The notes under the pieces are model-generated. The model was given only the letters and a program-made list of their open reading frames with translations. It did not search any database and was not told the DNA's origin. The position numbers and the translations under genes were made by a program. From contig SHXT01000007.1 of NCBI GenBank assembly GCA_009693175.1, positions 1-63,981 on the forward strand: a stretch of DNA of 63,981 bases. The letters are read 5' to 3'. Within the stretch, counting starts at the first letter, position 1, and the number at the start of each line of letters is the position of its first letter. Origin of the DNA: Candidatus Methylopumilus sp. Its GTDB lineage: Bacteria > Pseudomonadota > Gammaproteobacteria > Burkholderiales > Methylophilaceae. Below are positions 13,828 through 15,278 of the stretch, in pieces.

Positions 13828-13829
13828 TT

Positions 13830-14468
13830 ATGCCTGACTGGAAAAAACTTATAGAAGGTAAAATAGCACTCGCTAAAAAAGGAATGAAGCGAAGTGAATC
13901 AAATACGAAAGATCGAATTCCAGCAGGACAAACTTTAACGACTAAATTTCCTATTTTAGATTTAGGCATTCGCCCAGAAATTGATGAAACAAATTGGACG
14001 CTTAAAGTTTTTGGTCTTGTTGAAAAAGAAATTGTACTGGATTGGAAAGCTTTATTAGACCTTCCTCAGACAAAAGATGTTTCCGACTTTCACTGTGTGA
14101 CTTGCTGGTCTATGTTAGACGTGCCTTGGGAAGGTGTTCTAGCAAGAGATATTTTAAGTTTGGCCAAGCCGCTAGAAAAAGCACGCTATGTCACACTTCA
14201 TAGTTACGATGATTACACCACAAATATACCATTAGAGATTATGTTAGATGATGATGTGATCGTAGCACATCATGTTTTTAATAAACCTTTAGAAAATGAA
14301 CATGGTGGGCCAGTGAGATTAGTAGTCCCTAAGCGTTATGCTTGGAAAAGTGCTAAGTGGTTAAAAGCGATTGAGCTTCATACCGAAGACAGGCCAGGGT
14401 TTTGGGAGGTACGTGGTTATCATAATGATGCTGATCCTTGGCTCGAAGAAAGATTTTCGGATGATTAA
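13830..14468 (+). CDS. Sulfite oxidase-like molybdopterin-dependent oxidoreductase
   Basis: A 212-residue protein of the sulfite oxidase/MsrP molybdopterin-binding fold. FHCVTCWS contains Cys89, in the position of the molybdenum-ligating cysteine, with an extra Cys92. GGPVRLVVPKRYAWKSAKW and GYHNDADPW are further family landmarks. No Tat or Sec signal is visible, so this is the compact cytoplasmic-type member rather than periplasmic MsrP, and no MsrQ-like membrane partner is adjacent. It begins two bases after lspA. The substrate is unknown. Its stop codon is immediately followed, in the same frame, by a clpB fragment. Confidence 0.85.
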   Translation: MPDWKKLIEGKIALAKKGMKRSESNTKDRIPAGQTLTTKFPILDLGIRPEIDETNWTLKVFGLVEKEIVLDWKALLDLPQTKDVSDFHCVTCWSMLDVPWEGVLARDILSLAKPLEKARYVTLHSYDDYTTNIPLEIMLDDDVIVAHHVFNKPLENEHGGPVRLVVPKRYAWKSAKWLKAIELHTEDRPGFWEVRGYHNDADPWLEERFSDD

Positions 14469-14843
14469 CAAGTGATTAAGCTTGCCGTGATGGGAGAAGT
14501 TAAAAATTATTTTCGTCCAGAGTTTATTAATCGTATAGATGAAGTCGTTGTATTCCATGCATTAGCTGATGATCATGAGAAATCGATTGCATCAATACAA
14601 TTGCAAAATTTAAAAGATCGTTTAGCTCAACTTGAAATGAAAGTTGAAATTACAGAGGCTGCACTTAATGAGATTTCTAAAGAAGGATTTGATCCTGTGA
14701 ATGTTGCAAGACTTTTAAAGAGAGCAATCCAGTCTGAAATTGCAAATCTTCTTGTTAAATAAATTTTAGCGGGGTATTTTATGGCAAAAGATACAATTAA
14801 GATTGATAGTGTTTCAGGTAAACTTAAATTTACTAAAATTTAG
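14469..14843 (+). pseudogene. clpB: C-terminal remnant of the ClpB disaggregase gene
   Basis: The frame reads as the end of ClpB: FRPEFINRIDEVVVFH, then the D2 small domain to NLLVK. An in-frame TAA (14760-14762) interrupts it, after which the ClpB-like tail ILAGYFMAKDTIKIDS continues to a TAG ending at 14843. The first roughly 750 residues are absent; the fragment begins directly after the stop of the molybdoenzyme gene. The sensor-2 region reads DPVNVARLLKR instead of the usual DPxYGARPLKR, so constraint has been lost. A GTG-initiated 96-codon ORF at 14472-14762 exists, but I regard it as non-functional. Confidence 0.88.
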
Positions 14844-14858
14844 AATTAATCATGCTCT

Positions 14859-15278
14859 ATGAAACAATCTAGTAAATTATTGGCGATCCAAACATCGGGT
14901 CGCCATTTTTATGATATAACAAATCAAATCACTGATTGGGTTAATCAATCAGGCTTTAAAGAAGGGTTACTTACCTTATATGTTCAACATACATCAGCTA
15001 GTCTTTTAATTAATGAAAATTATGATCCTGATGTATTAGTTGATTTGGAAAGTTTTTTTGAGCGCTTAGTACCTGATGGTGACTCTCTTTTTATTCATAC
15101 TGCTGAAGGTAAAGATGATATGCCAGCACATATTAGAAGTGCGTTAACACAAACAAGCATTTCGATACCTATTTATCAAGGTAAAGTAGCATTAGGACAG
15201 TGGCAAGGTATTTTTTTATATGAACATCGTTATCAATCACATCAGCGTCGAGTGCTGATGCATGTGATAGGTGAATAA
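14859..15278 (+). CDS. yjbQ: YjbQ family protein (UPF0047)
   Basis: A 139-residue protein, the size of E. coli YjbQ (138). Family features include LYVQHTSASLLINEN, the DMPAHIRSAL segment and the GTWQGIFLYEHR-like motif near the C-terminus (here GQWQGIFLYEHR). Members have a compact trimeric fold with a metal-binding histidine cluster; a weak thiamine-phosphate synthase activity has been reported, but the cellular role is unsettled. It ends one base before the convergent EnvC-like gene. Confidence 0.88.
   Translation: MKQSSKLLAIQTSGRHFYDITNQITDWVNQSGFKEGLLTLYVQHTSASLLINENYDPDVLVDLESFFERLVPDGDSLFIHTAEGKDDMPAHIRSALTQTSISIPIYQGKVALGQWQGIFLYEHRYQSHQRRVLMHVIGE

Follow-up and report, generated by a model that had tools for sequence, protein, structure and literature searches.

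ClpB, the HSP100 protein represented by TIGR03346, is generally regarded as the principal disaggregase of bacteria, and gene remnants of reductive evolution are a known kind of feature in streamlined or symbiotic bacteria. The locus described here lies in a window of 63,981 nt (the whole stretch of DNA that was analysed; GC content 34%) and holds a gene remnant that shares with ClpB the sequence, locus and frame of the C-terminal 124 codons, including the ClpB_D2-small domain. It differs from ClpB in having no N-domain, D1, middle domain or D2 ATP-binding motifs, in its premature stop, and in the loss of the glycine and the following proline of sensor 2. Like other remnants of reductive evolution it is a stress gene that has been truncated and is decaying where the ancestral gene stood, in a genome of ~1.2 Mb; what sets it apart is that separate lineages of a single family have lost the gene and bear their scars at the same end of it. 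No earlier report of clpB loss in the Methylophilaceae was found in the open-licence PMC literature. The main text of two papers on streamlining in this family uses "clpB" 0 times (PMC6794327, PMC10872708), and the open text of PMC11978286 names it once, within a list of proteins. Our reading, to which we give a probability of about 0.92, is that the stump is what remains of the genome's only clpB after a deletion, with separate losses in other lineages.

Structure of the clpB remnant

The remnant occupies positions 14469-14843 of the forward strand and corresponds to codons 737-860 plus the stop codon TAG of an ancestral 860-codon clpB. Its one-frame translation reads QVIKLAVMGEVKNYFRPEFINRIDEVVVFH...LLVK*ILAGYFMAKDTIKIDSVSGKLKFTKI*, where the first asterisk is the in-frame TAA at 14760-14762 and the second the terminal TAG at 14841-14843. 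Aligned with the intact ClpB of a related genome (G008, 860 aa), it begins at residue 737 and reaches the C-terminal end with zero indels, and the 736 missing N-terminal residues make up 86% of the G008 protein. In the own-genome search the likeness between remnant and intact ClpB (E = 5.5e-61) was far beyond chance. A preliminary description of this DNA had reported a broken C-terminal piece of clpB here, with 85-90% of the gene missing upstream, an in-frame TAA followed by more ClpB-like tail, and NVARLL in place of YGARPL at sensor 2; all of these points, coordinates included, were borne out by the comparison with related genomes.

A functional ClpB has two AAA+ modules with Walker A and B motifs, a sensor-2 GAR in D2 and a C-terminal D2-small domain. 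Walker A and B of both ATPase domains (residues 206, 275, 608 and 677) all fall within the missing 736. The sensor-2 GAR of D2 is VAR in the remnant, and the surrounding YGARPL of the nine relatives with an unbroken clpB at this site has become NVARLL. The D2-small domain is recognizable: Pfam PF10431 (ClpB_D2-small) matches the 96-residue part at 1.5e-14, and all 81 profile positions are matched only when the remnant is read through one TAA. This premature TAA (14760-14762, forward strand) stands where the same nine relatives (seven with full and two with contig-cut copies) have GAA (Glu). It closes a 96-codon open stretch (14472-14762, forward strand, GTG start possible) that covers the end of the D2 large domain and most of D2-small and from which ATP-binding motifs are absent.

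Both neighbors of the remnant are intact and on the same strand. To the right lies yjbQ (UPF0047, 14859-15278), which is also the right neighbor of clpB in relatives, and to the left a gene for a molybdopterin oxidoreductase-domain protein of 212 aa ("oxM", 13830-14468), which forms the left border of the deletion. A phage origin of the locus (13830-15278) was considered and rejected, as phage records gave no match.

The clpB locus in the genus

We compared 16 genomes of the genus, including the one that bears the remnant (G000). A full 860-codon clpB was found in seven of them and contig-cut copies in two more (G006, G012). All nine copies directly precede yjbQ, and six of the seven full copies share a contig with lspA, so the lspA-yjbQ region of relatives, whose comparison the preliminary description had proposed, does carry intact clpB. 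A close copy of the oxidoreductase gene is present in half of the genomes (8/16), and five have it on one contig with clpB (G002, G003, G004, G013, G015). In G005, G007 and G009 clpB is absent and a scar is present. G001 and G010 had no ClpB match above the ClpA level, and their yjbQ was not found either; G011, which is 62% complete, had no clpB match. Restricting the comparison to the nine genomes with completeness of 90% or more and contamination of 5% or less leaves six with clpB and three without (G000, G005, G009). ClpB in a further record, L155 (Methylopumilus universalis), is 81% like that of G008.

The lspA-yjbQ interval (window 13828-14468; L079-L092) differs in content across the genus, holding a varying set of accessory genes. 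According to Pfam, the interval in G008 encodes a DUF2946 protein, a TonB-dependent receptor and two proteins with sub-threshold matches (one including an AhpC-TSA match, the other sub-threshold matches only), that of G003 an outer-membrane-type Phenol_MetA_deg protein and a redoxin-type protein, and that of G004 a histidine kinase and a response regulator.

In G000, clpB codon 737 follows immediately after the oxidoreductase stop. The same two points lie 4.2-8.1 kb apart in five relatives, and this interval is absent from G000. The junction (TCGGATGATTAACAAGTG, 14457-14474, forward strand) shares letters with both flanks when the printed sequences are compared by eye, and the reading frame is identical on its two sides. 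Letters in common with the relatives' clpB are GATGATTA and CAAGTG, the closest copy being that of G014, which has exactly GATGATTATCAAGTG; the rest depart from it at a few positions. In common with the end of the oxidoreductase gene is ATTAACAA, exact in G013, and its counterpart in other relatives is ATTAGCAA, ATTAGTAA or ATTAACAT. Going by these letters, a short imperfect homology is likely the joint of the deletion.

The order lspA, oxidoreductase gene, variable accessory genes, clpB and yjbQ, as in five relatives, would be ancestral. The deletion would have taken the accessory genes along with the promoter and codons 1-736 of clpB, and from the flanks and shared letters observed we infer that it probably proceeded in a single step by recombination at the short imperfect homology. 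The stump would then have gained its stop and sensor-2 changes, and could not have disaggregated proteins after losing the ATPase motifs.

Decay of the remnant

Among 111 residues invariant in the nine relatives, 12 are changed in the remnant, one of them to a stop, compared with 0-2 private changes in each relative at residues invariant in the other eight. Because G000 sits on a long branch (0.145 vs 0.008-0.052 for the other genus rows), neighboring genes were used as a control: for each gene, the mean amino-acid difference between G000 and the other genomes was divided by the mean difference of those genomes from one another. The ratio was 4.53 for the remnant vs 1.34-2.48 for seven neighbors: murJ 1.34 (on two relatives), ribF 1.62 (on four), and, on seven to eight relatives each, ileS 2.00, lspA 2.00, oxM 1.92, yjbQ 2.29 and envC 2.48. 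With the largest instead of the mean divergence among the others the contrast shrinks, to 1.96 vs 1.20-1.59.

The divergence of the remnant is mostly synonymous, yet amino-acid change is in excess. Its dN/dS against relatives is 0.08-0.10, compared with 0.00-0.05 for intact pairs, a value that alone does not show neutrality, as most of the divergence predates the loss. Constraint on the stump nevertheless appears relaxed from the excess in the ratio together with the 12 of 111 changes. Given the low dN/dS and the lack of indels, the loss is young relative to the G000 branch. The preliminary description had left two alternatives, a recent loss or a partial duplication; with no other clpB copy found in the genome and a full clpB standing at the same locus in relatives, the first is upheld, recent meaning on the scale of the species' own branch. 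The clpB loss of G000 is thus best described as a true one by deletion, probably recent, and one of several in the family.

Repeated loss of clpB in the Methylophilaceae

The preliminary description could not show that clpB has been lost more than once in the family, nor that other lineages have clpB stumps of their own in front of yjbQ. G005, G007 and G009 have a common scar, different from that of G000, in the spacer before yjbQ (L084, L085, L086). About the last 38 clpB codons are left there, with frame-breaking indels and stops, and G009 has a further deletion besides. In G007 and G009 the stretch preceding the scar matches the clpB upstream region to ~50 bases before the clpB start. These three genomes fall in the same 100/100 clade as G008, whose clpB is intact, although the inner order of this clade is unresolved. 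Parsimony on the genus tree gives three changes of clpB state, with starred branches forcing two for the lost group.

A separate truncation was found in G072, of genus g15, in which residues ~750-857 are kept before yjbQ in an open frame (L103:1129-1504), adjoining a TonB-dependent receptor gene. Its breakpoint lies ~13 codons from that of G000; GARPL is intact in the piece, whose open frame has no start codon before an internal GTG. Five other g15 genomes without clpB (G062, G071, G078, G082, G090) had no clpB match preceding yjbQ in the stretches examined, and the weak ClpB matches in three of the five were in or near envC.

The family survey covered 187 genomes, 119 of them good, which were split by hand at 1.6 Mb with sizes and completeness rounded. 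Genomes were counted as lacking clpB when the best match was no better than the ClpA level (~1e-121 to 1e-125), with the addition of G072 (1.3e-32); partial clpB copies with better E-values than the ClpA level were scored as present. Under this definition clpB is lacking in 10 of the 32 good genomes of at most 1.6 Mb (G000, G005, G009, G062, G071, G072, G078, G082, G090, G097) and in one of the 87 larger ones (G121). The Fisher value for loss against genome size, 5e-6, is descriptive only, as relatives are not independent and most of the eleven are multi-contig drafts. Repetition of clpB loss across separate lineages of the family, mostly with very small genomes, looks real.

A possible role of the clpB 3' end for yjbQ

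One alternative, compatible with a deletion of clpB, concerns why its end is still there. The clpB 3' end may survive by holding expression signals of yjbQ (a promoter, a leader or translational coupling), in which case deletions could reach but not cross the stump, and the protein would be dead with its control DNA functional; we regard this as possible but doubtful. In each of the three scar types (G000; G005/G007/G009; G072) the end of clpB still adjoins yjbQ, as such a constraint would have it, but the five clpB-less g15 genomes keep yjbQ with no clpB match before it, and in G066 and G069 clpB is on other contigs and oxM or lspA precedes yjbQ instead. Across eight genus clpB copies (one of them 5'-cut), the last 12 codons show 5% synonymous differences vs 28% overall, rank 6 among 849 windows; several of the windows with still fewer differences sit at the clpB 5' end. 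In six g15 genomes clpB overlaps the yjbQ start and its last window ranks first of 488, a signal that the coding overlap largely explains. The three decayed scars have 9/117 mismatches to G008 and no indel in the last 39 nt, against 18/137 plus indels in the part above, but this mismatch contrast is weak. A possible yjbQ promoter, TTGATA-16-TAAATT, lies inside the clpB 3' end (14803-14830, forward strand); as a motif match it is no better than chance (one found, 2.4 expected), and G009 alters the last base of its second hexamer. Only tentatively, then, might the repeated deletions have been bounded by a hidden yjbQ control element, such that lineages converged on the same stump, conserved while the protein dies.

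Other readings of the stump and the search for a second clpB

The 96-codon frame might instead encode a novel small protein consisting of the ClpB C-terminal domain alone, perhaps acting as a modulator of ClpA or DnaK. Its 96 codons are open, the GTG three bases past the oxidoreductase stop is positioned for reinitiation, and the independent truncation in G072 left a comparable C-terminal piece that is open and retains GARPL. However, the remnant has lost conserved motif residues, gained a premature stop and changed at an accelerated pace, the corresponding tail in G005/G007/G009 is broken by indels and stops, and in G072 the frame has its first start only at the GTG inside the piece. We consider a small protein very unlikely.

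Whether clpB is whole in the organism and the interval was dropped by a misjoin bears on the assembly, a 35-contig draft of 1.17 Mb that is 97% complete and is the one genome available for its species, with relatives that carry clpB. A misjoin would not explain why the stump carries a premature stop and substitutions that relatives do not share. A full-ClpB query found no N-terminal part of clpB on the genome's contigs, nor is there a close TonB receptor of the interval, the G008 query giving two weak matches only (E 4e-4 and 9e-4). The position of the junction, ~14 kb into the 64 kb contig C1, fits a deletion rather than a misjoin, as do the weak receptor matches. The single-contig genomes G005 and G009 are without clpB too, and an assembly artefact is thus extremely improbable.

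The genome was searched with the remnant fragment, Pfam PF10431 and full ClpB. Across the 35 contigs, ClpB-type matches were limited to the remnant, a ClpA-like gene on contig C32 (756-codon frame, 36-46% identity) and, with PF10431 only, a ClpX-like protein on contig C33, the names ClpA and ClpX being our assignment from reading the sequences. No second clpB copy was found in this 97%-complete genome by any of the three queries, which also answers the proposed check for a full clpB elsewhere. Replacement of ClpB by another HSP100 was considered and rejected, as PF10431 led only to the ClpA-like protein, the remnant and the ClpX-like protein. A partial duplication beside a full copy, for which no supporting evidence was found, can be dismissed given that no second copy was found and the stump occupies the clpB locus of relatives. 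With seven full copies before yjbQ in relatives and no intact copy found elsewhere in the genome, the stump is best taken as a pseudogene made by deletion.

Remaining chaperones and implications

DnaK was matched in all 16 genus genomes, in 14 of them over the cut-off, including the four that lost clpB (G000, G005, G007, G009). In G008 the dnaK match (C4:8190-9943) comes in two parts, the second of which contains a stop; a frameshift or an assembly error may lie behind this. RpoH was matched in 15 of 16 genomes and over the cut-off in 13, again including all four losers; G003 and G006 have partial copies, and G011 (62% complete) gave none. HSP20 was found in G002 only; the other 15 genomes showed none, clpB-bearing or not, so that nearly the whole genus seems to have lost the small heat-shock protein arm. 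The sequence TTGAAA-13-CCCCATGT (G002; CCCCATAT in the other four sequences compared) stands in front of intact clpB. Set against the sigma-32 consensus, it looks like a sigma-32 promoter, and in the scars of G005, G007 and G009 the sequence of this type appears decayed by eye.

From the absence of the gene we infer a cell without the ClpB half of the DnaK-ClpB disaggregase, with DnaK and RpoH kept. The loss may have been tolerated through few heat shocks in open water and through streamlining. As a pseudogene the stump is unremarkable, and so is the death of a gene in a genome that is shrinking; the recurrence of the loss is moderately interesting. Repeated loss of ClpB with DnaK and RpoH kept is a natural experiment on when disaggregation is dispensable, and sister genomes that are intact at the same locus allow the comparison.
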